From positions 37,967,201 to 38,031,200 of the forward strand of contig OZ038422.1 in the NCBI GenBank assembly GCA_964036155.1: DNA of 64,000 nucleotides, written 5' to 3'. The DNA comes from Diploscapter coronatus (lineage: Eukaryota; Nematoda; Chromadorea; Rhabditida; Rhabditidae). Below, in pieces: positions 1 through 62,012 of this stretch. Within the stretch, counting starts at the first letter, position 1, and each line of letters opens with the position of its first letter. Made by a program: the position numbers and the translations under genes. The notes below the pieces were generated by a model. It saw only the letters and a program-made list of their open reading frames with translations. It did no database searches and was not told the origin of the DNA.

Positions 1-3000
1 CTTGGACTAAAACTTTCGGGACTAGTTCTCTTGTTTCAGCACTTATCAAGGCCTCAAACCAACTGCAGCGGACGCCACCCAACGACGTCATCTCATTGGA
101 TTCTTGCATCGCACCTCTCATTTGTCTTTGACTTCAGAGTTATCTGGAGATGCTTCATTTTATCTAATTGGCAAGCAAATTGAATCATTAGGAGCAGAAC
201 TTATTTATTCGCGGAAACTTCAAAACTATTCTGTTGATTCAGGTCACCGAGGGCGAGGTCGTTATGAGGACTCCACTATGGGCTCAGAATCGGATGCTCG
301 CATGTTCTCCGATGAAGATGACAGGTAATAACTCATTTTCTAGGAAAAATCCAAATATCGATCTTGCCTTTGCTACTTTGACCAAGGGCCCTTCGTCATT
401 CTTTCTCTCTCGTGCGTATACGAAGAAGGTATTAGTACGCATTAGTTGAAAAACGGGGGCTCTAAACATAACTTTCGGACGCTGCAGCTCATATTGATTC
501 TTCCATTTGCCTTTATTGCTTCAACTATGTCTGGATATCTTTCTGAGGACGGAGATTTTGACTCTTGTGAGGCGAAAACGTATTATTCAACTACTTCGAC
601 TAGCGAAGATCATTATTACACTGTTTCAAAGGCAAAGTAAGAGAATGGATAAATTTATGAAACTTCTTGGCTTTGATCACCTCCATGACTATTTGTCAAA
701 GACTTGATTATGTTTGAAATGAAAAACCGCCTTTTGAGCTGCCGGTGTTCTTTCGCCAGTAAATCATGTGGTAATTGCTTCACCCTGAAGAGGATATTGC
801 TATTTGATTGCCAGAAAGATAAAAATACTCCCTGGTCCAGAAAGTGCAAATATCGCGTTTTTAGGGGTTCGACGACAACTGACCTGACGTCGGTGTCACG
901 TCAACATGAAAATCTTACTAGGCGACGTCGAAATCGGCGTCATTACAGGAAACCCTCAAGGGCGTCTTCCTTCTCGTCCATTACTGGTAGACCAATAGGG
1001 AAGAAAAAGTTGTAAATAAATCGATTTCAGAGTCCTCTATGAGTTTGGATGTGATCACAGTAACATTGAACATGGACACTGTTAACTTTCTGGGCATTTC
1101 CATTGTTGGTCAGACGGGACTCCGAGGCGACAGCGGAATTTATGTCGCTAGCATAATGAAAGGCAAGAGGATCAATAAGTTTACGAACTCCAAGTTGACG
1201 TAATTCAGGAGGCGCAGTGGCTCTTGATGGTCGCATCGAGGCTGGTGACATGATTCTCCAAGTCAATGACATCGCCTTCGACAATTTCACCAACGATCAA
1301 GCAGTGGACGTTCTCAGGGACGCAGTAGCTCGTCGAGGACCCATCAAGCTGACGGTCGCCAAATGCTTTGATGCTGGACCAAGGGACGGGTTCACGATTC
1401 CTCGACACCAACGGGACGAACCAGTCAGGCCGATCGACACTCAGGCATGGATCCAGCACACGAATGCTATGAGGGGAATGCCGAGTATTATTGAAGGTAA
1501 GGAACTCTTCAGCGAGTTTATGAAATAGAGACATTTCAGGCTCTGAGGGAGCACCCACCCCCATTCCTCATGATTGGCCTGCTCATCAACGACCTGCTAG
1601 CAGTTCGACGGTCACCTCCACTGGCTCAAATGGCCACAATACGGTGATTGGCTCGAGCATTCGATTGGATCTTAGGACTGATAAGAAAGAGGCAATTTTT
1701 CCCTCTCATTCAAAACACGGAACTCTTCTTTCAGGTCGTTAAAGTAATGGCCATGCCGAACTCCGGCCTGGATATCAAGGATCGAACGTGGCTGAAGATA
1801 CCCATTCCTATGTCTTTCTTGGGCTCTGACTTGGTTGATTGGCTACTGGATCATGTCGACGGTCTGAGGGAAAGGAAAGATGCCAGAAAGTACGCCTCGG
1901 AACTTCTGAGGTTGAAACTGATCGTCCACGTCGTCAGCAAGATCACGTTCACTGAGCAGTGCTACTATGTTCTGGGCGATGCAGTTCAAGGTTGATCTTT
2001 TGTGCGCCATAGAAGAAGTTGCAATAAGAAAACTTAGAAGCGACCCGCTACCGTTCGAACGATGCCCTCTCCCAACAACCTCCAGTGCGCTACACGCCCC
2101 AGACGCATTGGTCCGCAGGAAACAACCAGCAGGTGGGACTGATGAGTGCGGGCCTGGCGCCGAGCCTTGGCAGCTTGGCGCCGAAAGGACGAGCACTGGG
2201 TGCTTCGTCGCTGGTGAGCGACTCGATCGCTGGCGTGCCGCCACCCAACACGCCATTGCCTCAGAGCGGACAACAACAAGCACCGTCGAATGCGTCATCA
2301 TCAAACGCACCAAATGCACAAGCACCAATGTATGTCATGCACATTTGAATATCGTCAATAATCTGAAAATGTTTGCATAGTCTTTGCTTGAAATTGACGA
2401 TAAATAAATGTCAGCTAAATGATAAAATGATATGATCTAATTGATTTATGTATCGATGAAATTCTAAGAACATTGACTGTGTTACTAATTTTTATGTGGA
2501 TTTTATCAAGAATTAGAAATTCTCAAGCGCCAGATTTCAAATTTGTTATTTAGTCTTGATTGATGAACCACTTTGTTTCATTCGTTGTCATTTTTATGTT
2601 TTAACAAATTCTTTATTGTTTGATTGAAGATTCAGTTTCTTAACATGTCATTGCCAAAACTTTGTTCGTCACAGTGTCAGAAGATTTTTACGCCATTAAC
2701 AGACCTAGGGAGCACTTTCGTCAGACAAAGAATTCTATGGGGGTGGTCGCAGAGGGAAAATTTTGTATGACGGCGTAGGTCGCAAACTTGAATGTTTACG
2801 CTATTGATTGATTAGAGATACAAAATTCTTGAGAAAATATATAGAGGGGGTAGGTCGCAAGGGGTTTCTGGCGATCGTCCTCCCTAGGTCTGGTCATTAA
2901 CTTTTTATTCAATCGCATTTAAGCCGGTGCCATTCATTAACGAGTTTTTTTTTTCAAAATGTTTCTACAGATTTTTGCATTCTACTCATGATCAGCATGA

Positions 3001-31961: not shown

Positions 31962-32072
31962 GGGCTCCCTATATTTTCAGACGAATGACAGACAGACGGC
32001 TCTTTTCTTTTTCATTTTTCCGCTTTTCCTACATTCCCTGTCCTCCTTATTCGTCTGTAAATACAAGGGCCC
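31962..32072. mobile_element. MITE family B, copy 2
   Basis: 111 bp with ends GGGCTCCCTATATTTTCAGACG and CGTCTGTAAATACAAGGGCCC. The TGTATTTACAGACG core is the same as in the copy inside the TTL intron. The interior is short and pyrimidine-rich, so this copy looks internally deleted. Confidence 0.75.
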
Positions 32073-32512
32073 ATATATGAGAACCAAGAATTATTGGAAA
32101 ATGACTGTATGTGTGTTTCGAATCGATCACATGTTTGCTGGGATATGGTTGGAGGAGTGTGTAGATATGATGTGGGTACTGTACAGCATTCGATGACTTA
32201 TATGATTAAATGGTAACTCGGAAAAAAGACCCCCAAAGCCCAACGAATGCGAGCCTCAATTCTACCAGCCCTATATTGTTGATAATGAAACCTCGGAAGC
32301 GTGCAAAGTGGTGTATGGTTATTTTTAGTGGTTAGAAAATCGAGAAATAGCACGCGAAAAGGAGAGACTGACCTAAAATAGTTTGTTCTCCCCTCATTTT
32401 TGACCTCCAAGATTTCGAACTCAACAATATCATAATGGTAAAAATGTTTAAATCGGGGTTCTTTTTCTTTGGACTTGGGGCACTTATCCGATTTATGTGG
32501 TTAAATGGTTAT

Positions 32513-32610
32513 TTGGAAACCTCAAGCCATGCGAAATAGGGTGAGGGATGGTAGGGAAGACGGTTCTTTTCTCTCACTATTTCGCATGGCTTGAGGGTTG
32601 AGGTTTCCAA
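32513..32610. repeat. Foldback element
   Basis: 98 bp with arms TTGGAAACCTCAAGCCATGC and GCATGGCTTGAGGGTTGAGG (then TTTCCAA), plus GAAATAGGGTGAG against CTCACTATTTC. Strongly self-complementary, and 0.4 kb beyond the insulin A-chain exon. Confidence 0.8.
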
Positions 32611-33007
32611 GTTGCCGATTAAATTGTGGGGGGTTTTGTTGGACTATTTCGGGATCGCTCAAAGACCGGTAATCAGCTCGAACGACAGCGGGAACATTTG
32701 ACGTCAGATGTAAATTTGAGTCATCTAAAAGGAAGTTATTTTAAAATTTTAAAAATACTGAATCTTGATTCCAATAATCAGATAAAAAATCACATTCCTC
32801 TTAATCCACTATCGTGCTTCTTTAAATTTTTCTAATTGAACATTTTTTGAATTTTAGTATGAAAGATGGGTTTTAAGATTATGATAATTTCTATAAAATG
32901 TTCAATTGAAATAAATGGTATTGATTTAGATATGATTTTAAAAATGGAATAAAATAAAATATGAACGTTAAGATTAAGATAATTTTTATTGAATATCTAA
33001 ATTTGTA

Positions 33008-33141
33008 TTAAGTTACAAAAAATCTCACTTTATCTTTAATATTGTCTCGATTGCAAAACCGCTTCCTGAGATAGTCCAAGGAGCAGGGCTTAAAACAACA
33101 CTCGGCAGAGATCTTGCTTGTGGGGTTGAGATCGTCGCTAA
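33008..33141 (-). CDS. Insulin-like peptide, A-chain (terminal) exon
   Basis: Exon 33141-33008 on the minus strand, preceded by a clean acceptor (ATTATTTTGCAG), encodes a short C-peptide-like lead (SDDLNPTSK) and an insulin A chain: ISAECCFKPC, nine residues (SLDYLRKRF), then C. The CC-x3-C core is the A-chain signature. The gap to the last Cys is nine residues where eight is usual. The protein ends KVRFFVT, TAA 33010-33008, with AATAAA just after. The exon has no start codon or signal peptide of its own, so it must be spliced to an upstream B-chain exon. The only ones I find are at 41467-41782 and 42798-42978, same strand. Its first two bases complete a phase-1 codon, matching both. The product would be a secreted hormone acting on an insulin/IGF-type receptor. 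Confidence 0.82.
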
Positions 33142-36100
33142 CTGCAAAATAATCTTATTCAGTTTAATTCTTTTATTTCATTTTTTAAAAATATTATTCC
33201 TTTATTCACTAACTTTATAGTTAAGTATTTTATTTATCTTTTTACTCTATCCTTCCCATAAGTATTATCTTTCACTTTATCTTTTTAAACATTATAAATG
33301 TTGTTCCAATTCTAAGTTCTTGCAATTAGATACTTAAAGTATCATTTTCATTTCAAGATTTCAATTTAATAATTTAGATCGTATAATTTTCAGCTTTATG
33401 ATTCGATATTTTGCAACGAAATGATTAGCATGAATAATTTGAGCTATTATTAATGCTCGAACTGCCTAAGTTTACATATTGTTGTTAAGTAAATTTCGAA
33501 ATTAATATGATTATTATTTTTGGAAAGTATAATAGGCTCAATATCAACACTAGCTTGAAATCTTCGCTAATAATATCACGAGATTTTTAGTTTCCGAGGG
33601 TAATGTTGCGGAAAAATCCGTTAATTTGATAACATGGGAGTTTTAAGTAAAATAGTGAAGTTCAACTGTTTTGAGATGCGGAAGAAAATTTTGCAGTTTT
33701 CCTAATTTTCCTATTTTTAGACGTTGAATCACAAATTTGCTAAAATTAGATGACCAAACTTCCGATTTTTTTCTTTAGCCATGAAACAACTTGCAACGTC
33801 ATAATTCAACTTATCCTTAATGATATAATAATTTTACATATAATTTCTTAGGATTGGAATCTTCTAAATCTCTAAAACCAAGGATACCCTTGGGTGATTC
33901 ATAAAAATTAATGGTATCTATTCGAATGCGTACCATGTTGTGCCAGGGTTAACCATGTTTTTCCGCATTAGTTTTTCGTTAGGCGTTCAGGTTTTTGTGA
34001 TGACACCCCTCTTGCAAAGGCCGACCTTTTTCGACGATTTCTAAGCGCGTGTGAACTTGGGCCAACAATTTTCCGAATTCACCCCCATTTTTCGTTTTTG
34101 CTCACTTTTGCATGAAGAACATGTGAATTCGCCAGATAACTAGTGACATTGGAAAAGGAAAAGTGAAAGGGAAAAAATCGAAGTTCACTAAAGATCAATT
34201 ACGATAGAGAAATTTAAAAGGTTGATCTTTTAAAGTAGTTTAAATGAAAAAACTTCTATTTTTATATGAATCCCCTGAAAGTTTGGTAAACGAATATAGT
34301 TCCTCAAATAGTGATAGTTCAAAGCGAGAAAACAAGAAAAACTTGAAAGAATTACCGACAACTGTTAGGGTTCAAATTTTCAAATGGAAAATGAGTAACC
34401 TAGATTTTTTGCTTGTTTTGAATTTTTCCAAGCTCTTATTTTTCAAATTAGATCCAAAGTAAAAGTCCTTATTTACTCAAAGTTTATTGAGAATTTTCTT
34501 ATTTGTAAAAGTTCTGTAAAATTACTCAACCATGCAGCAAATAGCTCGTACTTATACAAATTTCTTAGAACAGAGTCGTAGAATTGTTGCATTACTGTGA
34601 TTGCAGAAAAATTGCCCTCTAAAATAAGAATGAACTTCAAATTCCTATAAACCCTTTAAGGAAATATCGTAAACTTGTTGATTTCTGAATAACCATTTCT
34701 TAAAGTTCTAGTGCCAGTCCGTATAATCTATTTACCGCATTTACGTAAATCAAAGGCATTTTTCTACCGTAATCAAGATTACCCTAAAAGTTATACTTTA
34801 AACATCTAGAAAGTTTTTCATTATTTATCACATTTTTATATTTTTCATGGCGTTTTCCGAGTTTTGTTTCGATGTCAGCTAATTTGAGGGGGCTTATGAA
34901 TTTTACACCAGGTGGTTTTGATGGAATATATTTTATTATTGACGAAAATATGATAGATTTGACACGAAATGCAGTGTAAATCCGTTGAAAATATATTGAA
35001 GGCTATCGGGAGAAGAATGCGCGTAAAAGTCAGCGTAGAATGGGGGTAGCACGTGGGGTTGAAAATCTAGAGGAACAAAACAATTTTTATCTAATGTTGA
35101 AGAATGGAAGATCAAACCGGGCGATATATCAGATAGAATGTTTTGAGCATGAGACTTCATGCTAATGCAATTTTCAGTTGACCTTGAATTTTTTATTTTT
35201 CACCCACTCGGTCTGAGGATCAAAATTTGTAGAGCTAGATCAACAAAATTTAGCGAATTTTGAAATTTTCAGCCTACTATAGGAATTAAAGAGAAATATC
35301 CATAAATCCTAGATTTAGGCATTCTTCTGGATTGATTGAATGATAATATCAAGAATAATTAGCTATTTTATATGTTTATGAATAAATTTCAAGTCCCTTT
35401 CCAAATATGAACATAGGTTTCCCTACTTTCTTTCCGATCTTCAGATTTGCAAGTTTTCATCAGATAGGACCAGATCAGGATCAATCATATGATAAAATGA
35501 CTAGCAAGTCACATTCGTCCCTTTATTATCAGCAAATGAAAAAGCTGATCTTCATTTCTGACTTCGTGATTCTCCACTTTATGCGTAAACAACTCGCGGA
35601 AACCTGTAGACTTTTGGATGATTCATTAAGAGATGCGGATTGTTCTTAAATAGCATATTGGAATGTTTAATTTTTAGTTAATTATTTAAAAACTTTTTTT
35701 AAAAATATTTTTTCACTAATATTAGCTGTTTTTTTTTATCGATATTCGATCATTTTTTGTGAGTCGGAGAAAAAATTGATGGAAAATTGAGTGCAGGAAA
35801 AATTGAGATCGCAAAAAACCCAGGATAAACAATTTTAATAGAAGAAAACTGATGTGGCGATGAAATCTCCAATCTATTGCCGTGAAAAAGTCAGTTTTCT
35901 TTCAGATTTTATCGGGTGTTTTTCAATGTTTCTTCAAAGTAGCAGGAATCATGAAGATAAAAAAGAAACACTTTTAGTTTCCTGATAAATTTAGCTCTAA
36001 TTTGGTTTGAAGGTCGAAAAAATTAGAGATTCGCACCAAAATAGCAACTCAAAAATTGATCAGCAATTAAAAGTCTCTTATATTTGACAAAATATTTTAA

Positions 36101-39100
36101 ATTTTAAAATTTGTTATTTCGATTTCGAAAATCCTATTTGTTATTTGGCGATTGCCAGTTTTTCGTAGTTTCATGTCAAAAACGCTTTCCGGTCACGTGA
36201 AAATGGTCGGGGTTTTCGAGATTTCGCCCGAAATTCGATATGCCTTTTGGTTTTCGTCATATTTTTGCAATGAATATACGAAGCGATCTCGCACGTATGA
36301 GACTTGACGACAATTCTGCGCTTTAAATTTTCCGCATTACACATTTTCAACCTAATACGGGACAATGCATCAAATTAGACGTCAGAAATTTTCAGACGCG
36401 GAATTTTGTGTAATGCGTACTAAATTTGTACTATGGCTAAAATTGTAACAATAGTTAGGAAAAAGGAAGTTCAAAAATTAAGATCAGGGGGAACAGAATC
36501 GATTATTAAAATTTAGAATATTCCAAAATGTATAGATATCAGAGACTGGATTTCAATTTTTACACGTTTTCGTTTTAAAAATTTACAATAACTTGGAAAA
36601 AATCTTTTTTTTCCATATATTAACTAAAACTTAAATAAAAATATCATGAATCTGTTTATATCATTGTTTATTTGTCATCTATCCATATCTATTTTGCTCT
36701 AAATCAGATGATAATGTTTGCATATTCGGATATTATGCAAGAGCAGCGCAGACTGTCTAATAATCAAAGACATCGAGGGAAAATGAGAGAAATGAGAAAT
36801 TTGGTCCGATTTTCAGCACAGTTCATAATATGTGCGTTCGTGCATTTTCAAATTCTTCAAATTCTTAGACTCAGCATTGAAATGAACTCAAAATATGAAG
36901 AGTTCAACAATTTTCCATAATTTATTATTTAATCATAAAATTTTTAAATTTATATTTAAGTTAGTCTCAAAATATGCTATTTAAAAATATGTAAAACTTA
37001 GGAGCATCACAATTTGAATCTTATCAGATGAAACGTCGATTATTTGCTAATTTTTAGCATTAAATTTAAAATTTTTGAACGAACTGAACTATAAATCTGA
37101 CTTTCCTCATTTTTATGGGTCGATTCAATAGTGCTCAAATGGTGTAACCCACTTCACCTTTGAAGAGCCCATTTAGGGTCACAAAATGTGCAAGTCAAAA
37201 TGGTGCAAAGATTGGAGGAAATAGTCGAAAGATTGACGTTTTTCTCTTTCCACTTATAAAGTGCTTGACTTAAATAAGAACAACTGTTCATATTTAAGGA
37301 GAACTGTCAATTATTATGATCTAATAAGTAACGAGTGCCAGGTGACGAAAAATATGAGAATTTGAATTTATTATAGCTTTCCTCAGTTAATCTTACACCT
37401 AGAAAGAATATTTTTGATTGATTTTTCGAAAGAAATTTACTTTTTACGTTCAAGAGTTCCAAAGTTCGCTATTTGTCGGTGTAAATTTAGATTTAGGCAG
37501 TTTGTTTGTTTATTTGTTTTCTCAAGCCTTTACGCGTGATGTTGTAGAAATCAGAAAGCAGTAAAGAAGTAAATGTAAAAAAAAAAAGTTAGTATTATCT
37601 CTAATTCTCTGTGTCTCTTTATATCCCAATGGTTAGAGTCTAAATCTCATCTACGCCCTAACCTATTCTAATGATAAAAGATAGGCGAGTTTAGACAGAA
37701 CTCTGATCTAGCAGAATCTGAAACGTCGCATTCGCGTAAGACAAACAGTTGCATGGGCGCGAGGGAGTAGGCGAACTGGAGAGAATACCAGACAGTAAAA
37801 GGGGAAGAGGAGAAAACAAAGAAAAATACCTCATTAAGCGCGACAGTTTTGCTTTGGTAGTAAGGAAGAAATGAATGTACCAAAATAACTCAATTTTCTA
37901 TTGTTCGTTTGAAAATCTGTTGTGTAGAAATTTCAAAACGGAAGAAATTCTTTTATTCTTCCATTTTAAAATTAAAAACTGGGGATCCAGAAAACCCCGC
38001 ATTTGTCCAAATACTCCAGAAACGATGATTGATTTAGAGGAAAATAAATAAAACCGAAAAATGTGCGTCAAGGCGCTCTTAAATCGCGACATTTCGTCGC
38101 CAAATCAATTTGACATTCCTCGTTTTTATCCGAGCAGAATGAGCAACGACCCTCGAAACAACACTTTACTTTTGCCACTTAATCTTGGCCAAGTATTTTA
38201 AACTTTTAGATTATTTTTCCTATGTTTTGAGTTTTAAATGATCTTTTGAAAAGAACATTTGCAAATTTCACGCTGAAAGTTTTATGACATCAAATTTCAC
38301 TAGAGCTAGACAATGATGTTTTACGAGGGAAGCCCTACGCTTTTTTGCAGACGCGCTTTTACCGATCCATGAAGATCAACCTCCTCCGTATTCGCGTAAA
38401 AAATGGCATAAAACTGCAAAAATTTTCCGATATGATACATTTTCCAAGACGTGGAAAAAGACTTGAAATTAATCAACTGTAACGTCTCGGCTCAATAGAA
38501 TGTAGCAAATCATTCAGAGATGTTAATGTTCAATCAAATGAAAACTTGAATTTGTACAACTTCTTATAATTTAGCACGGTTAATTAGGGATTAAATTTAA
38601 AATTCAGGTTTATGCTGTTGAGTTTTCGGAGAGCGAAAAAGTTTCCACGGTAAATTTGTTTTAATAGAAAAAGTTGCGAATTCATTTTTCAAAGTTTGGA
38701 TACAGTATTTTCTCGTGAATACACTATTATCTTTCCACACTTAACCTCTTTAGAAATTGCGGTGAAAGACCAATGTGGCCAGATTCTTGCAAAACTTCAC
38801 ACCTCTCAACACATTGTTGCAATGCAACTTTTTGATCATGCAACGAACGTTCTTAAGGCGTTTTCCCCCGATCGAATACGAAAGTTACGAGTAAAAAATA
38901 GCTGTTTGAAAAGAGTTGAGTCCAAAAGATCGATCACCTCATAATTTTCGAGAGTTAGGAGATCCGCGATTTTAACGCCTATCTTGCAGTTTGATGAGGG
39001 CAGAGTAGCACAAAAATTGGAAGGGAGGAAAATAAAATAAAGCACCAAAGTACAGCAATTCAGCAATGCAATTTGTTGCTTTCGCTGAATTTAGAGAAAC

Positions 39101-41466
39101 TATTCAAAGTTCGAGGAACTTTTCTTCAAAAGTGCCTTTCATGAGGAAAATCTACATTTGAAGGCGTGGATCAAGAAATTTCAATCAAATTAGACATTAT
39201 TTTAGTCTGTTGAGTTGCATTCTCCTTCCTCAAACTTGATAATATTCTTATCTTCATCGTTCTCTGCCCCTTCCTACAAAATCTGAACACCCCCAGAATA
39301 AAAAATCTCACTTTCTTCACTTCCAGCAAAAACTAAATACACTCCATTTATTTCACTTGAATGCAACTCTTCACGATTGTTGAAAAATCCTCTAGTCCTC
39401 TAGCACTTTTCTCGACCAATTTTCCTTCTTTCAGTCGTTTCTGACGTTCATCGTTTGTGTCAGTTCGGGATCTCTTCAAATTCTATGATCTCTACGGGGC
39501 TTCGGCCGTTCGCTTCAAAGCTTCCCCGTTCTCGGTTTTCAGGCACTTTCAATCAAATAACACAATTTGCCATACACACTTACACACACACACCTTTGCA
39601 CAGAGACAGGCCACAAGAAGTGTAAAACGAATCGACAATCGACTCTGGCATAGAGAACTATCCTTCAGCATCGATAAAGGTCAGAATCGCAGAACATGAA
39701 AGAGTTTCTTGCACTGATACAAGCGATGCTGGAGGAAATTTTGAGAATCAGGTTTGAACTTAAACATTGAATTTCGACGTCCTTCATCACTATCCATCAT
39801 TCAATGCTTTAGAAAAAGTCGTTCACAAGATCAAAACAAGTCCATTGCCGCATGCTACTAAACTACACCTCATGCTGTACTCACAACATCTTTAGCGAGC
39901 GTTTGACTCAAATTGACAGAAGAATGACGATGATAGGTAAAAATCCTTGTCAAGTTTTCGAACCCTAAATTTTCGTGATGTTGCATGTTTGGCCATTTAA
40001 AAAGTACGAAAACAGCGCTCTTTGAAGTTTGGGAAATTCCGAGCACCCAAGCGTGAAATTCGTCTGTATTTTGGCATATGTTCCAGGTTTCACTCCATGG
40101 GTTTGCAGAACGCGTATGCAAATGTCAAAAGCAATTTTTGCGGTTCCTAGAGCGGAGTTTTCGAAATTACACAGCTGGATTTCAGGATGTATATAGAGAT
40201 CTCTGGGGTATTGCAGAAAATTTTAAATTCAGTCCAAATCCAGCATGCTCAGCGTCTAAACTTCAGTTCTAACAGTTCCAATATTGCAGCGTTTAGCAAT
40301 TGGCACAGATTTTATAGTGCAAAACGAAGTTTGATTTGGGGGCTAAACTTCAATTTTTCTTCCGAATTTGTCTGTCAGTACGCGTTTGTCAAATTAGCTA
40401 CGGTTGATAGGCGTTTTGATGACAAAGAAACCGCAGGCCGCGCGATTTGACATCGGGAAGTTCTCCAGACCAGAGTCAGAAAATCCCTGATGGGCTGAAA
40501 AAGTCATCCTCGGAAAAAACTTCAGCGCAAAAATCGTTCCATCAATGGTTAAAAACGCCCTAGAACAGCTTGTTTGTTGTTTCTTAAATGTAGGCAAAAT
40601 CGCAACTGTGACGCGGAAAAACGCCTGGGCGAATTAGCTGCGGAGGGTAGAAAAGGTTGTAATGGCGCCGGCCGTGGCTGAGGCGCCTGAGAAACCGCAA
40701 ACAATAATCGTCAATATGACGATGATTTGATAAAATTGCCAACCGAAGCGCTTTTCACCGTCTAATTAGAAAATCAGTAGTCACATGGTTTGGCAGCGGA
40801 AAAAAGGCAGAAGCCGAAAATCAAGGGTCAGAAAAAGGCGGTAGAAAATTAGAAATGATCATTTTGAGAAGCAGAGATGCCGCAGTTTTGGTGCAAGCAC
40901 GAAGGTTTCTTGACTCTAGACAGAGGCACGTAGAAGACCCAGAAATTTCAAATTCAATGCTTGTAAGGTACGATTTTTCAATACTTGATGGAGCTTCTAT
41001 GTTGAGAGGAGTTGGTACGAATTTCTAAGATATCAAAATATTAGAAATGACACAAAATCGTTCAACCCTAATAAAAAGTACAGGATGATCTTCAGTGCAT
41101 TCGCAAAAGGACGATGATCTCGAAATCTGACCCTAATTGGCTAATTAGCAAACTTCTGATAATAGAGGATACGTCACTGGAGAGATATCATAACACGCGC
41201 TAATTTAATTAGAGAGCATAAATTAAAGGGAATCAAGATTCTCCGAATTAAGCGCGCTGCAGATTATCAGATGAATGAAAACGCGATTTTTCGCTGGCAA
41301 GAAAGGACAGATTGCGTAGTTTTCGTGAATGAAAATGTTGCTTTAAAATATGGCAAAATCACGAATAAAGGCTAGCGTAACAAGTCCAGAACTCATAATT
41401 CAGTAATTAAGACATGCTCAAATTTAGCGTAGATTTAAAAATAAACATTCAAAAATGATGACGCAC
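33142..41466 (-). other. Proposed 8.3-kb insulin intron
   Basis: Between the A-chain exon and the nearer B-chain exon. I scanned the minus strand for adjacent Cys-Cys codons that could begin another A chain. Hits near 34533, 38158, 39052 and 39884 all fail on spacing or run into stops. Several frames of 60-90 codons exist (for example 38696-38944 plus, 39870-40121 minus), but none has recognisable motifs. A CA-rich run lies at 39575-39592. If no long splicing occurs here, this is simply intergenic DNA. Confidence 0.4.
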
Positions 41467-41782
41467 CTCCTCTGGAGAAAAATCCGTCTGGGCAGGCCTT
41501 CTTAATCGCGAAAAACAGCGAGTCTCCGCAGTGTCGCTTCGGTCGAGCCGACGAATATGCGATACAGAAGAATAGGAGTAATAGCACGAAGAGGTACCGT
41601 GAGATCTTCGGAAAATTTAATGAATACCGGTGGGTTTCCGTAGGAGAATTCGAAGATCGGTACGGGCTCGAGTCCGCAGTGATCTCAATTGGAACGAGTT
41701 CGGACCGGATCAACCCCTGTTGTTCAGCAGGGTTAGGAGAATTGCAGGAATGGTCATGGTTGAGTTCAGCAGCAGCTACCAT
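41467..41782 (-). CDS. Insulin-like peptide, signal sequence plus B-chain exon 2
   Basis: Minus-strand exon from ATG 41782 to a donor GGAG|GTGCGT at 41467. The last part encodes a strong hydrophobic signal (YLFVLLLLFFCIAYSSA), a dibasic PKR and a B chain HCGDSLFFAIKKACPDGFF, with the standard CG-x10-C spacing. About 65 hydrophilic residues precede the hydrophobic core, unusually long for a signal peptide, with no internal Met. They may be real, giving a signal anchor, or the true start may lie in another exon: an acceptor ATTCCAG sits 14 bases before the ATG. The exon ends in phase 1 and fits the A-chain exon at 33141. Joined, the product would be 149 residues. A conventional partner A exon nearby was looked for and not found. 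Confidence 0.75.
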
Positions 41783-42797
41783 CGTATTATTGGACTGGAA
41801 TATATGAATTTGACGTCGTAAGATTCAGAAGCTTGACGTCGTCTTTTTATTCAAAGTTGACGTCCCCTGGATTCAGAATCCTAGCCCCCGTCGTCGTCGT
41901 CGTCGTTGTCGTGGTGTCTTGGTGGTGGACCCGTGTCAAAGTGCTGCCGCTGCTGAGAAAATAGTGGGGGTTGGAGACTAAAGGCGGAGACGGAAAGGGT
42001 GTGTGTGTGAGCGAAGGGGGAAGAGACAAAAAGCGGTTTAGCTAAGCGCGCGCCGAGAGTGTGAGAGCGTAGAAAAGGGGCGTGGCCTAGAGCATTATCA
42101 ATTTTCGTCGGTTTTGCAGCAGCAAAGATGACGAAAAAATGTGCGCTCTTGAAAAATGGGCGGAGTCGAATTCAAAGTATAAGAAAAAATTTCAAAAAAC
42201 TGTAGTCCTCGGTTAAAAAATAAGAATTGTACGAATAGAGAGCGAGATAAAATACTTGCAAACCGAAGTATTCGTGCTGCAAAATTGTGACTGAACTTTG
42301 AAAGGGAGCGGGATAAATTAAATTCGCCTTTGAGATTTTGTACTTCTCAAAATGTCTAATTCATGTTTTAGTGCAAGAAACGTCCAGACAGACGAACATT
42401 TGTATATCAACTTACGAAATGCCATTGAATTCTTTCAAGCGACAGTATTTGTTGCAAATTTCAAGGATTATTAAGGAGGGCTATGCATTAAACAATAGCA
42501 TAATGAGCGGTAATTATGATATTTAAAACTATCAACAACTGAAAATGCAAAATAACATGCCATCATGCGAACTTTCATGTGCGGAGACAATTTAAGTCAA
42601 TTGAAGTATCGTTTTTATAGAACACTAGACAATTTTCAGTTTAACTATGGGTGTTCCTTTAGTAAACATTTTAAAAGTAAAATAATTTGAAGCTTATCGA
42701 AAAAGGAAGTACTTTCAGGAAAGGATAGTATTTAGTAATATATGTCATTTTAATTAACAACATATTAAAATAGAATTTAAACATGAATTTGACTAAC
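41783..42797. other. Between the two insulin B-chain exons
   Basis: Contains a GTC trinucleotide run (about 41889-41915) and a GTGTGT tract (42000-42008), and presumably the promoter of the 41782 exon. The minus strand of this interval contains no A-chain-like Cys-Cys exon: the GCAGCAGCA at 42117 leads to a stop after five residues, and ACAACA at 42758 is followed directly by a stop. The 42978 exon therefore has no local partner. Confidence 0.5.
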
Positions 42798-42978
42798 CTT
42801 TATTGTATTTAATCCCGTCCTTGCATACCGCTTCAAGGTACCTGAGCGTCTCTTTGCCGCATAATTTTACTTCGTCATTCTGCGGCTCGGACGGTGCGGA
42901 ATCACAAATTTGAATCATCGATAAGACGAACAGAATCACCGAGCATATAGAGATTTTACAGTAGCTTGAAGCCATCAT
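42798..42978 (-). CDS. Insulin-like peptide, signal sequence plus B-chain exon 1
   Basis: Minus-strand exon from ATG 42978 (MMASSY) to donor AAAG|GTTAGT. It encodes a typical signal peptide (SVILFVLSMIQICDS), a short pro-region (APSEPQNDEV) and a B chain KLCGKETLRYLEAVCKDG, with CG-x10-C spacing. The exon is 60 codons plus one base, phase 1, the position of the conserved C-peptide intron in insulin genes. The next same-strand A-chain exon is at 33141, 9.7 kb away, beyond a second B-chain exon. Joined to it, the product would be 104 residues, a normal size for a nematode insulin. CxDG after the second Cys is shared with the other B chain, which suggests duplication of the exon. Alternatively, this gene has lost its A chain. 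Confidence 0.85.
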
Positions 42979-43255
42979 CGAATATGTTTAGGAGGGAAGT
43001 TATCGCCCAAGATTGAGCAATCTGAAAGACTTATAATTGTAATCTCCGGGAAGTGTAACTCTAGCCTAAAACGATATCGAGTGTAAATGGGTCATCGATG
43101 AAGAATAAAAATGAAACAACGAATATCAAGAACTTCTATCGATTACAGAAAATATTTACATTATGTTGTTAAAACAAATAAATAGTCTACAGAATAAAAA
43201 ATGCATTTTAAGCAGACAAACTCAAAGATCATAGCAAAATGATAAAGAATGGAGT

Positions 43256-43420
43256 TCAAAATAAGCGCGCGCATTTTGCTTGATTGACATTTTCATCGAA
43301 AAGTGATAAACAACAATTTTTATCTTTTTTTTTCGTCGGAGGACGCTTAGTGACTTTCACCATGTCCTCCACATAGCAGCGCAGGGTCGCCGCGTTTCGT
43401 CGAACTTGATTCAGAAACAT
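43256..43420 (-). CDS. Possible small ORF or exon, unidentified
   Basis: A minus-strand frame of 54 residues beginning MFLNQVRRNAATLRCYVEDM and continuing VKVTKRPP, a Lys run, then a less regular end. The first 32 codons are GC-rich at third positions against an AT-rich background, like real exons elsewhere here, and the N-terminus is basic and amphipathic as in small mitochondrial proteins. A stop lies directly before the ATG. No family recognised. It could be a small gene, one exon of a larger one, or a decayed gene fragment. Another frame of the same strand is also open for about 30 codons. Confidence 0.25.
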   Translation of the reverse strand: MFLNQVRRNAATLRCYVEDMVKVTKRPPTKKKDKNCCLSLFDENVNQAKCARLF

Positions 43421-46400
43421 TCAAGGCGATTTTCTGCTCCGTATTTCTAATCATATAATTAATTCTTACAAAAAAATCCTCCCATCCAAATTAGCAAAAA
43501 AATACTTGAAATACCAACTTTCGCAAAAAAAAAATATAATGAGAGCAAGACAAGCAGTGATGCAGCTTGTTTTTTACAGGACATTCTTTGGAAAATGAGA
43601 AATTTAGATTCTGCAATACATGCGCAAAATGTTGAACTCGAATAAAGAGGCAGATTTTGAGATTTCTATTTGACCACCGGAAAACTCCGCCAATCAGTTC
43701 ATGAGAGTGGTTGATCGTTTTCTTATCATTTCCCCAGGGAAAAGGAGGCGTGGCTTCCCCAAGAAACACAATGAGAGACATAGTAAACCCGAATTTTTAT
43801 CTTTATTAGTAATCACTGACTCGACTGAAAAGTGAATTGTATGCCAAAGTCGTTATCAGCGTCTTTACTAAAATACCCCCATTCAAAGGCATTCGTAAAA
43901 TATTGGCATTTTAAAAATCTTTATGGGAATGATAAGGATATCGTGAAAATCAATCTATATTTGCTATTTGTTTATTTACTAACTTTGCAAGAAATATTCA
44001 TTTGCGTAGTTTCGGCGTGTTTTTGTACGAAAATTTCAAAGATATCGGGATTCTAAAAATCCAGCGAACAAAAAATTGAATTTGGCCTTTTAATCCTTAT
44101 GAGGGCTTAGTCGTTTTCTCACTCTGATCAAATTTCATGGTAGGCGTTTCGTATTTTCATTTTTCCCTACATCCTCCCTCTAAACTTTCCCCCTACATTT
44201 TTCTGAACATTTTCAATCCGTTGAAATTAGAACTCAATTTTGTCATAGGCCACTTTTGTTGATTTTAATGATAAAATGCAAACTTTGCTGCATAAAGCCG
44301 ATTTTGGAAACTTCGAATGAAATAATAAAATATAGACGAGTGAAATCTTATCTGTGTCCTGGAGTGTGCTTAGACCGTTGAAAACATCGAATGACGCAGA
44401 TTTTTAGTGAATAAAAAATATATACCCTTTTCAAAAAGCGGAATAAGCTTGGATTACTATTTGGCATTAAAATAACCGCTAGTGATTAAAACACAATTTA
44501 ATATTTTATTAAATGTAAAGAAAAGTATAATATTCTGAAAAAAAAAGAATTGGATGTTAAAGAACTCTTTAAGATTTATATACAAGATGCATAAGAAAAG
44601 TTGCGGTTTTTTTCAGATTTCTGAAGAGTCATCTTAATAATTTGATCATTTATATGAGTATTGCTCATTTATGAATCAGATACCTGTTAATAATTTTTGT
44701 GACGCCTATTATTATGTGTCATTTTGCAATGTCATATAAAATAAGTAATGAGTTCGAAAACTTTCGCAATGTTTCTGGTTTGTACCATGAAAAAGTAAAA
44801 AAAGATGTTTGTCATAGGTCCTCGAATTTTCGCAGTATCATGGAAGTAATAAAAAGTTTGATGGATTTGAAAATTTCCGAATTCCAGAAATTTGATACAA
44901 TAACATTCATCAGAACTTAGTATAATATTTCATTCAGAAAACTACAAATATTTAAAGTATAAAAAATTGAAATGAACTTTCGAATTTGACTTTCTAATGC
45001 TAGTCAAATTTGACATTGTTTGAAAAGTGATAAAGTTAAAATTTAACGATGATAAAACGCGCGCTTCCCGTAGGTTCATAAGCTTGTTTACAACATTTCA
45101 AACACTCTCAGAAAAAAATGGCTTGAGTTTGAAGGAAAAAGTGTTTAAATGAATTTTGGCCCCATCAAACTATACCAGAGTTTCAGGTACAATGATAAAC
45201 ATCATGAGTTGAAATTCATAGCAGAGAAAAGCTACAAACTGAAAAAAAAACTTTACGGATGCATTTAAACATCATAATAAAAGCTTAAGAACGATGTAAA
45301 TTTTTGAAGACCTAAGAAGGATAGGTTAGATTGAACATTGAGAATATTTTGGCATTTTATCAGGGAATTTGTGGGCGTATTACCAAAATTCAATGATATG
45401 AGTTGACAGTAAAACTTGAAATTGTCGTCATAAAAATTGCAGAAAAAGGCGAGAAAGACTGTAGCAATTCCTTACATCGCACGTGATTTAGCTGTGTATG
45501 AAAATTGATAAGAAAAAGTGATTAGAGAAATGACTCGACTTGAAATTTCTAAGTCAACAAATTTGATTCGAACCGAAACACAATGGAATTCCGGATTTTT
45601 CAATTTAAGACGATAGTGGTGCGTTAAAAATCTAATAGAAAATTTGATCTTCATCATTAGACACCCATAAATTGAACCATAACTGCCTGGTATTAAGGCT
45701 ACGTAAAATTAAACACAATTCCAAAATATCACCAATTTCAATATTTCTTAGAAGTTTAGTACACTTTACAAGTGTGTATGCTCTTACTTAGGCTTCGAAA
45801 ATATTTCAGGATTAAATTGTATCTCATATTTTGCTAAACTCCTATCTTTTCAAATTCAAAGAAACTGACTCTTCAACATGCGGCTGTACGTAAAGGTACG
45901 TGTAAATAATGCTAGAAGATTTCCCTTTAATGTTTAAAAATGTAATCTTAATTCCGTCTGAGATATTTTGAATTCTGTGCACAAAATGAAAATGTTTTGT
46001 ATGATATTGTTTGCAAATAATCGGGGATAAATAGGACCGCAGTAGATCTAAAAAATCAGGACTACATTTTAACCGAACGCCTATTAAAAATGGCATTTGT
46101 CTTCAAAATGCCGTCGTCTCATAAGCGACGTTTCAGAAATTCTCGCTATTGTCACGAATAAACGGAAAATTGTGCTCAAAATTTATTCTTTTTTTTTAAA
46201 TCAAAATCCAAATTTTCAACAGACTTTTTTAAAAGGTTAAAAGTTATCAAAGTTGGAGAAAAAATTTTACTAGATAACTCTTAAAATATTGTGAGGTTCA
46301 AATAATAGTTTTCTTCATAAAATGTCGACGAAAAATAATATGAACTCAAAATTTCACTTGGAAGACCAAAGGGCAATTGTAAACGAGATTTCTTCTGACC

Positions 46401-57841: not shown

Positions 57842-59307
57842 TCACGTCTGAGACAATATCACTTCACAGGCATAGGATGTTGTGGCTTCACTACAATTGA
57901 ACGGGTACCATTTACCAAGTAATGCTGAATTTTTTCCTGCTATTTGGAAAATCGACATCTAAAAACGTCATTTTGGAAAGAAACTCGAGATTTTCTTACA
58001 AATGCACAAGTGTAATTCGTATTATCAGCGTTATCACCGTCGGCCCAATTCGTGTAGTTTAGATTCGTACCGTCTTCCCACAACCAGCTACCAGAATTTT
58101 TGATTAGTCCCAAGATTAACTTTCCTGAATTGGCGTTAGACGATTGATAGCTCCTAATGGAGACTCCTAAGTGGTTTTCCTTTTTAATTTAAGATGTCTT
58201 AATTTTATATGAACCTAGCATAAATTCATTTTCTTCATAACTCTCAATTACTGCTGCCGCTAAATATGGACTTGCACTATGGCAGACTTGAGATGAACTA
58301 GTATAATTCCCAAAAGTTCGTTTATAGGCGACCTAATTTCTGTATCGGATGTAATAGATTTTAGCTTTTTTATACCGTATAGCAACTATTCGTCTTCTTA
58401 TAATACGTCCACCCATTAAGGCATTTTTCGACTAGATAATAAAAGGAAAGTATTATTAGTAGATGAATGAAATAAAAAGACTAACATACATTTCAATGGT
58501 GGATAGACACAATAGTATTTAAAGTAGTTTTTGCAATTTGAATGGTGCCAATCCCCGTAAATATCATTGGAAACGCAATCGTCTCCGGGGATATAGGCTA
58601 ACTTTAAAAATATTCGAATTAAAGTTTTTTTCTCTTACGACAGCAGCTGCCCTTCCAACACATATTATCGGGTAGGCAGACATTTTCGACACATTTATAT
58701 TTCGAGACTCGTTTATTCGGGCACATAGCCCATGTAGAGAAATTTAAATGAAACCAATCGTTATTTTCAGCAATTTTATGGGGTCTAAATAATATCTTTA
58801 TGCTAATTTAGTAGATTCGCTCCTACTTTTTGGAAGTAGTTTTAAAAGCGAACGGATTGTAAAAATTGGTGTAATTCGATTTCTGTCCATTCGTACAAGT
58901 ACCATTTGGCAGATTACCTAACCAAAGTCGGGAAATTTCATAGGCGTTCTTTTTTACTAAACACGTTTATAATTTGATAAATATTTTAAATTTAATTATT
59001 ACGGCTATTTTTATCGAACAATCGAAATAAGTTTGTATTGTACGAATCATCGATCACGCAAGGTAAATTACCGCCTAACTTTCGACAGGAATTTTCTGCC
59101 TAAACTGAATTATTTAGATCTTCAAGCTAAATTATACTTTATTACATTATGAAAAGTACCATATGCACCGTCTAAAATGCACATATTATTCCCAGTTCCA
59201 TAAATATCGTAGAGCTGTCCTCCATAATTACAGATATCGTTTATATTAGAATTAGAATACTTCAAAATCTCAAATATGACAAGTAGTAATAATGGAATAA
59301 TATGCAT
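57842..59307 (-). CDS. C-type lectin-domain protein, two CTLDs, secreted
   Basis: Secreted clec-type protein; such genes are often immune- or gut-expressed in nematodes. ATG 59307 starts a hydrophobic signal (IIPLLLLVIFEIL). The first CTLD runs from ICNYGGQLYDIYGTG through NAENSCRKLGGNLPCV and RLWLGNLPNGTC to DWHHSNCKNYFKYYCV. The second runs from CLNGWTYYKKTNSCYTV through GLIKNSGSWLWEDGTNLNYT, NWADGDNADN and KWYPFNCSEATTSYACEV to the end. Exons I can join in frame include 59307-59146, 59099-59003, and three more to about 58500, then 58429 onward; the last intron is only 44 nt. WADGDNADN resembles the calcium-site WND region but is not the canonical WND, so sugar binding is uncertain. Several N-glycosylation sequons (NYT, NGT, NFS) are present. 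Stop at 57844-57842. The precise clec gene is not assigned. Confidence 0.88.
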
Positions 59308-60265: not shown

Positions 60266-62012
60266 ATGGCCGCCCGTATTACTCTCATTCGTGTACCTTT
60301 GTTTGCCCGTTCTTTCTCTGCATTCCAGGCAAGATTTGTGGGAATTGCATATTTTTACATATCTCATGAGTTAATGCCCAGTTTCAGGCCAAAACCGCTC
60401 AATACCAAGGAAAGTCCGAAATCATGTCTTCAAATCTAATCCCACCACCAGACGTATTGAAAGAACCGATAAAAGTTCCTCCGAGGCAATTATTCGGGCC
60501 TGGTCCGTCGAATATGCCCGACGCCGTAGCCCACACTCAATCAATGAGTCTATTGGGACATTTGCACCCGGAATTCTTGAAGGTTCGCATTTCTTCTTGG
60601 AATCTTTAAAAATTCGACGAAAAGCAAGAAAACTTGATAAAATGACTTCCCAGGTAATGCACGATGTTCGCGATGGCCTGAAATACCTATTTCAAACCAC
60701 GAACGACTTTACGATGTGTGCTAGTGGGACAGGTATCAACTTCCAAAAAAGTCTTATAAAATTTCAAACCAGGTCATTCCGGCATGGAATGCGCCTTTCT
60801 GAATCTCCTTGAGCGTGGAGAGTCTCTTCTCTGTGTCACCACTGGGCTCTGGGGCAAGCGTGCCGAGAGTTTGGGACAGCGACTTGGGCTGCAGACGTTC
60901 GTCGTCGAAGCTTCACAGGGTGAAGTCGTATCGGTAGAGGAGATTTCCAAGGTTCTCAAAAATAGCTACCTTTTTCTAAAATGGAGCAAATTTCAGGCTA
61001 TTGAACAACACAAGCCCACTGCGATGTTCGTCTGCATCGGCGAGAGCTCCACTGGCATCGTTCAGCCGATCCAGGGTCTGTCTGAAGCCTGCAAGAAACA
61101 CAACACGCTCTTGATCGCTGACACGGTAAGTCGCAACTCGAATAAAAGCGACATTTTTCTTAAAAAAAAAAAAAAAAACCAACCATATTTCTTTCAGGTC
61201 GCATCAATCGGAGCGGAACCTTTCAAGATGGACGAGTGGGGCGTCGACTGCGTGTATTCCGCTACACAAAAAGTGCTCAATGCACCCCCTGGACTTGCGC
61301 CGATTTCATTCAGCAAGCGGGCCATGTTCGTTCAATTCGACGAAAGTGGCAATTTAAGGATTTCAGGGACAAGATCCGGAATCGTAAGACGAAGGTCGCA
61401 TCCTTCTACTTCGACGCATTGGAGCTTGGCAATTACTGGGGGTGCGATGGACAGATCACCAGGTGAGAAGCCATGAGGATTCAAGAAAACCCCGATAATA
61501 TTCATAGTATTGAAAAATTTCAGATACCACCACACCGCTCCAATTAGTTCTGTCTACGCTATCCGCTCCGCCCTTTCTATCATCGCCAACGAAAGCTTGG
61601 AGCACAGTTGGGAGCGACACAGGACAAACGTGAAACTTCTTCATTCTCTACTCGAAGAAAATGGATTTGAGTGCTTTGTACAAAAGCCGGTAGGAGTTCA
61701 ATTTTCCCAAAACAAAATCCCAACTTTGCAAGTCTAGGAGAACCGTCTTGCCTGCCTCACAGTCGTCAAAGTGCCACAAGGTGTGGATGGCAAGAAAGTG
61801 ACCTCTTCATTACTGGGGAAGGGACTGGAGGTTAGGCCAACAAATTTTCGACTCATCATTTTTTCGAGTTTTAGATAGCGAACGGTCTCGGTGAATCCGC
61901 AGCTAAATTGTGGAGAATCGGCACGTTCGGGGGGAATTCCGATGAACAGAAAATCCGAAACGTCGTCAAAATGCTCAAGGACGAGGTACAAAATCCGACC
62001 AACAAACTTTAA
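60266..62012 (+). CDS. agxt-1: Alanine-glyoxylate / serine-pyruvate aminotransferase
   Basis: PLP-dependent class V aminotransferase that converts glyoxylate to glycine using alanine or serine. Ten exons (60266-60328, 60388-60582, 60654-60732, 60773-60951, 60997-61125, 61198-61325, 61367-61462, 61524-61689, 61738-61830, 61875-62012) sum to 422 codons. Conserved blocks: QLFGPGPSNMP, ASGTGHSGMECA, GLWGKRAE, GESSTGIVQPIQG, LIADTVASIGAEP, and the PLP lysine in SATQKVLNAPPG, then FYFDALELGNYWGC and YHHTAPI. Exon 1 encodes an Arg-rich, acid-free leader (MAARITLIRVPLFARSFSAF) typical of mitochondrial import; an in-frame internal ATG at 60424 (MSSNLIPPPD) would give a leaderless form. The C-terminus NPTNKL ends in NKL, a PTS1-like tripeptide, comparable to KKL in the human enzyme. 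Dual mitochondrial and peroxisomal targeting is thus possible (inference). Body length matches human AGT. Polyadenylation signal AATAAA near 62072. Confidence 0.95.
60329..60387 (+). other. GC-AG intron joining the mitochondrial leader to agxt-1
   Basis: 59-nt intron with donor CAG|GCAAGA and acceptor GTTTCAG. Splicing joins the leader exon to AKTAQYQGKSEIMSSN in phase 0. Without splicing the frame does not meet the main coding frame, so only the internal ATG could be used. A weak GC donor is well placed to set the ratio of leader-containing to leaderless protein (inference). Confidence 0.8.

Follow-up and report, generated by a model that had tools for sequence, protein, structure and literature searches.

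The window, by which is meant the whole stretch of 64,000 nucleotides of Diploscapter coronatus DNA that was analysed, contains on its minus strand, in this order, two exons for insulin-like B chains (B1 and B2) and one exon for an A chain (Table 1). Both B exons end in phase 1, the A exon begins in the same phase and is the only A-chain exon found in the window, and the order of the exons is kept on the second haplotype. On balance, these exons appear from their sequence to form one insulin-like gene, in which two alternative first coding exons would feed one A exon. Transcripts starting upstream of B1 would skip B2 and have B1 joined to the distant A exon, and transcripts starting between B1 and B2 would have B2 joined to this same exon. 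Such a gene would employ two promoters, and the 5′ ends of its transcripts would probably be produced by spliced-leader trans-splicing at the CAG located just before each ATG. The two predicted precursors, both presumably secreted, would each have their own signal peptide and B chain, with the C-domain and A chain in common. As the link between B and A lacks a dibasic site, both products may act as single-chain hormones, as IGFs do. The B2–A pair appears well supported, whereas the B1–A pair is a weaker proposal, for which phase, intron position and intactness would argue.

Table 1. Features of the candidate insulin-like gene, with positions given in the window
Feature	Position	Strand	Description	Basis
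Exon B1	42798..42978	-	Signal-like stretch and B chain (KLCGKETLRYLEAVCKDGIKYNK), phase-1 end	Translation and GT donor
Exon B2	41467..41782	-	N-terminal part of ~60 residues, hydrophobic stretch, KR, B chain (HCGDSLFFAIKKACPDGFFSRG), phase-1 end	
A exon, putatively shared	33008..33141	-	C-domain, A chain (KISAECCFKPCSLDYLRKRFCN), tail, stop	
Acceptor of the A exon, TTTTGCAG	33149-33142	-		
B2–A intron	33142..41466	-	8.3 kb	
AATAAA	32985..32990	-	3′ of the A exon stop; this haplotype only, missing in the C2 copy	
TCTTTCAG	43022..43029	-	Possible acceptor for trans- or cis-splicing; the B1 ATG follows after 43 nt	
TTCCAG	41795..41800	-	Possible acceptor, 12 nt before the B2 ATG; kept on C2	
GC- and pyrimidine-rich block before B2	41901..42100	-	Possible promoter	

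Exon anatomy and start regions

The first-pass annotation had described each B exon as a hydrophobic signal-like stretch and a B chain ending at a phase-1 GT donor, and this description was confirmed, its coordinates proving exact. The B chains (CGKETLRYLEAVC and CGDSLFFAIKKAC) have the pattern CG-x10-C, with CysB7 and CysB19 eleven residues apart and a glycine after CysB7, the spacing and residue that characterise the insulin superfamily. Genes of this superfamily possess a phase-1 intron between their B and A parts, and phase 1 was found at both B donors (exon/intron borders AATAAAG/GTTAGT for B1 and AGAGGAG/GTGCGT for B2) and at the A acceptor (TTTTGCAG/TTAGCG). CysB19 is separated from the donor by eight codons and one base in B1 and B2 alike, and the intron therefore occupies the same position in both. 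Joining either of them to the A exon gives one open frame with the same stop codon. The exact agreement in phase and in CysB19-to-donor distance, with one A exon only, favours two first exons using a common A exon. The A-chain signature of the superfamily is CC-x3-C-x8-C; here nine residues, not eight, lie between CysA11 and CysA20 on both haplotypes, one extra residue being present before CysA20. Beta-type insulins of nematodes have a fourth disulphide and eight Cys in B and A, and six Cys are present here.

Both strands of the window were scanned under strict rules, a B exon being defined by a hydrophobic stretch, CG-x10-C and a phase-1 GT, and an A exon by an acceptor, a phase-1 start, the motif CC-x3-C-x8-9-C and a stop codon. 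The scan identified two exons of the B type and a single one of the A type, all on the minus strand, against a chance level for the same scan of 0.0 B-like and 0.027 A-like exons per window (mean of 150 first-order Markov windows). Under these rules no third B exon was identified between B2 and A, including near 33-36 kb, where the earlier annotation had envisaged another partner for the A exon. A looser B list, which keeps only some of the residues after the first Cys, held a minus-strand match at 34605-34570, which was rejected as it has no signal stretch. The pattern CC-x3-C-x7-10-C occurred once in 64 kb over both strands, and a pattern scan with flexible spacing gave one further match in the window, located on the plus strand. 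Terminal frames in phase 1 that are bounded by AG and contain three Cys or more numbered 15 (distinct frames) in 42797-32000 and 11 in the corresponding stretch of the second haplotype. One of the 15 resembled an A chain, namely the A exon itself, and two lay wholly between B1 and B2, neither of them A-like. The earlier claim that no other plausible A chain is present was thus upheld: no second A chain was found by the whole-window pattern scans or by the terminal-frame scan on both haplotypes, and the same scans showed no remnant of one between B1 and B2. A Cys-rich phase-1 frame at 38073-38177 on the minus strand (KCCFEGRCSFCSDKNEEC) is kept on the second haplotype with one replacement and lacks a good acceptor; it probably arose by chance. 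Among the 15 frames it comes nearest to an A chain after the A exon itself; its Cys spacing is wrong and its acceptor, judged by eye, poor, and it was rejected as an A exon.

Elsewhere in the window, exons encoding a PDZ domain (1199-1528, plus strand), a C-type lectin domain (57940-58188, minus strand) and a class-V aminotransferase domain (60760-61476, plus strand) were identified over the Pfam cut-offs, and the remaining frames of the ten that were scanned gave no match. No structured RNA was found in the whole window at Rfam cut-offs, and short repeats in 32000-44500 included nothing bearing on the B exons.

A simple search of up to 200 bases before each ATG identified one acceptor-like site for B1, whose counterpart on the second haplotype is TTTTTCAG, and three for B2: TTCCAG at 12 nt, TCCAG at 84 nt and TTTCTCAG at 170 nt, the two further CAGs ending at 41867 and 41953. 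In passages of PMC6231769, ~70% of the protein-coding transcripts of C. elegans are described as receiving a trans-spliced leader, and since trans-splicing is common in that species, the CAGs before the B1 and B2 ATGs are plausible leader sites. Two 100-base bins upstream of B2 have a GC content of 0.55-0.57 and a pyrimidine content of 0.61-0.69, compared with a mean GC of 0.342 in the B2–A intron; this block is a possible promoter situated inside the B1–A intron. No GC-rich block was detected in the five bins before B1 (43500-43001), where GC is 0.21-0.45. As to separate start regions for the two first exons, an acceptor-like CAG precedes each ATG and the GC-rich block is found before B2 alone. 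The CAGs and the B2 block favour alternative first exons.

Allelic comparison and a third sequence

The window lies in a contig of 87.7 Mb (C1) and a homologous region was identified in a contig of 82.0 Mb (C2), the third contig of the assembly being, by subtraction, ~13 kb. Two homologous contigs with so small a remainder are what would be anticipated for a parthenogenetic, unichromosomal nematode like Diploscapter. Nine alignment blocks longer than 200 bp between the window and C2 are 92.8-97.3% identical, a divergence of ~5% that fits a Diploscapter, D. coronatus being described in passages of PMC5483258 as having 2n = 2, 170 Mb in all and 5.7% heterozygosity. In the C2 copy the three exons retain their order and phases; the B- and A-chain cysteines are also retained, as is the CAG preceding each ATG. 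Between the haplotypes B1 shows four substitutions and no indel, with start, frame, both Cys, donor and acceptor intact; under a simple model in which any indel counts as damage, the chance of this is ~0.21, and the preservation of these signals is a further point in favour of B1 as a working exon. B1 and B2 together (497 bases) have no indel between haplotypes, for which the chance is ~0.083, given 0.0050 indel events per base locally.

The substitution spectrum of the intron (343 of 8,932 sites) served as the neutral yardstick for amino-acid and silent changes between haplotypes, and the P values are nominal, one per segment. The B2 core (41632-41468, 55 codons) shows no amino-acid and three silent changes against 4.4 and 2.4 expected (P 0.013), whereas the first 50 codons of B2 show six and three against 4.6 and 1.9. 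For B1 the figures are three and one against 5.1 and 2.1 (P 0.24), and for the A exon (41 codons compared) three and three against 3.5 and 1.5, the amino-acid changes of the latter falling in the C-domain and tail and none between KISAECC and FCN. With B1, the B2 core and the A exon pooled, six amino-acid changes were found against 12.9 expected (P 0.027). B2 is therefore under selection and the exon set as a whole probably is, while B1 alone shows no significant constraint in this test. The dN of B1 is 0.021 and its dS 0.029, values that rest on four changes, and the resulting dN/dS is far above the median allelic value of 0.12 given for D. coronatus gene pairs in passages of PMC5483258. The conserved arrangement on C2 and the constraint on the B2 core and on the pooled exons favour the proposed gene, which is weakened by the lack of significant constraint on B1 and by its dN/dS. 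The first-pass proposal of alternative first exons making two hormones is upheld in part: it agrees with the anatomy on both contigs and with the well-supported B2–A pair, and the allelic changes of B1 give no sign of purifying selection. The neutral-like change in 41633-41782, the first 50 codons of B2, may mean that the true protein start differs from the ATG at 41782, or that this part is unconstrained.

In C2, a deletion of ~110 bp (32900-33010 of the window; near 35665105 of C2) reaches the last bases of the A exon and removes its stop and AATAAA, so that the frame ends one codon later than in the window, and no AATAAA was found in the roughly 250 bases that follow. The A exon had been annotated with a phase-1 start and a stop and polyadenylation signal of its own; the start stands, and the latter two belong to this haplotype only. 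The deletion, like the A-chain spacing that is off by one, counts against the proposed gene. It apparently took place between imperfect 41-nt repeats (32859-32899 and 32954-32994 of the window, 76% alike).

A third source of B2 is P0001, a frame of 214 residues on a contig of 4,160 bases. Identity to the window is 89% over its last 132 residues, and its upstream part is 83% identical over 80 residues to the region before the B2 exon. Three replacements occur in the 55 residues of the B2 core and eight in the first 50 residues, the same contrast as between the haplotypes, and at the TTCCAG site of B2 the frame residues HIFQSNN are the same in P0001. This recurrence of the B2 core and its upstream region is in favour of the proposed gene. 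No relative of B1 was found in the protein collection, in which so short an exon would seldom appear as a called protein; its absence there and that of a GC-rich block before it weaken the case. Comparison of B1 and B2 revealed only two 11-base DNA matches (E 0.67) and no significant translated match. A recent duplication of one from the other was rejected on this near-absence of similarity; any copying would be old. A search for paralogues elsewhere in the genome, scoring the best candidates only, returned the two haplotype copies alone.

Family membership and known insulin-like genes

The B2–A join scores 24.1 bits with the Pfam model Ins_beta (PF03488), over the curated cut-off of 21, and the B2 core with the C2 A exon scores 25.2 bits, so that the cut-off is passed on both haplotypes, in favour of the proposed gene. 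The B1–A join falls short at 19.8 bits (18.5 for the C2 version); the A exon alone scores 19.5 bits, and B1 adds only 0.3 bit. That B1 contributes so little, and still less on C2, weakens the case for B1–A. With the general Insulin model of Pfam (cut-off 23) the scores are 21.3 for B1–A, 15.3 for B2–A, 16.7 for the A exon alone and 17.4 for B1–A of C2. B2 thus raises the score of the beta-type model and B1 that of the general model, which is still below its cut-off. For both joins, sequence matches to IGFs and insulins of the PDB span B and A (best E 0.0013 and 0.0016), and an NCBIfam search gave no match. The identification of B2–A as insulin-like is well supported by the curated Ins_beta model, on which it is based since the A-chain signature misses by one residue. 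B1–A is not assigned to Ins_beta and is proposed only to work like a member of it.

Like the nematode beta-type peptides of PF03488, B2–A has KR just before the B chain and a short B–A link without a dibasic site, besides scoring over their cut-off. Unlike them, the locus combines two B exons with a single A exon and has six Cys in B and A where they have eight, an extra residue between CysA11 and CysA20, and a B1–A join under the cut-off. At least two other insulin loci were found in the genome by the Pfam models, each present on both contigs and scoring over a Pfam cut-off (best E values 2.3e-5 and 0.0015); in these, a single B motif and a single A motif lie 0.19-0.26 kb from each other, with CC at the end of the A chain. 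A weak Pfam match on C2 at 29.2 Mb (E 4.4) was rejected, no A-chain motif being present in the 10 kb examined.

More than one precursor per insulin-family gene is also described, in passages of PMC7357564, for arthropod and vertebrate IGF genes with alternative splicing, in which the C-terminal extension varies, whereas here the signal peptide and B chain would. The C. elegans gene ins-31 likewise has more than one copy of an insulin part at one locus, described in passages of PMC3967928 as insulin-like repeats and not as two B exons with a common A exon. An insulin gene in which two B exons go with one A exon appears in none of the titles and abstract openings surveyed, subscription journals lying mostly outside them, and the passages of PMC7357564, PMC7041946 and PMC3967928 contain no such arrangement. 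The main text of the D. coronatus paper (PMC5483258), passages of which indicate that RNA-seq and ESTs exist for this species, has no occurrence of the word insulin.

Competing explanations and significance

B2–A could be a conventional insulin-like gene whose intron happens to be long, with B1 an orphan B exon from a neighbouring tandem copy that recently lost its A exon. This explanation, which we consider somewhat unlikely, agrees with allelic changes in B1 that are not significantly below neutral, with its almost nil contribution to the Ins_beta score, with the absence of a promoter-like block upstream, and with an intactness that has a fair chance under neutrality. However, the lack of DNA similarity to B2 would make B1 old, yet all its signals are intact on both haplotypes, and the stretch between B1 and B2 showed no trace of a second A chain. 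Alternatively, B1 could be part of a separate gene with a 3′ exon of its own, A-like or other, that was missed as it is unlike an insulin A chain. Nematode insulins vary and the scans rely on Cys patterns, the flexible one having given its further match on the plus strand; with so few candidate terminal frames downstream of B1, and neither of the two before B2 resembling an A chain, such an exon is improbable.

It is more improbable still that the B1 donor is normally joined to the acceptor of B2, so that the product is short and B-only and B1 serves as a regulatory leader of B2–A instead of contributing to a hormone. The acceptor-like CAG of B2 does lie inside the B1–A intron, and joining the B1 donor to 41794 gives one completed codon, CAA, and then TAA; the signal-like stretch and B chain of B1 would however be purposeless in such a leader, yet they are intact on both haplotypes. 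Two first exons sharing the A exon continue to be the preferred explanation.

The receptor-binding end of insulin is C-G-E-R-G-F-F. The B2 chain ends in C-P-D-G-F-F, which is close to it, and B1 in C-K-D-G-I-K-Y, without G-F-F. Altered receptor behaviour between the B1 and B2 products is possible. The more specific suggestion that the choice of first exon switches between receptor agonism (B2) and another activity, perhaps antagonism (B1), with an identical A half, is unlikely and put forward tentatively.

Forty insulin genes are described for C. elegans in passages of PMC3967928, nematodes diversifying insulin signalling by many genes. If the two-first-exon gene proposed here is real, the swapping of B chains by first-exon choice would be a second route to ligand diversity, and the locus would offer a natural experiment on the role of the B chain with the A chain fixed.
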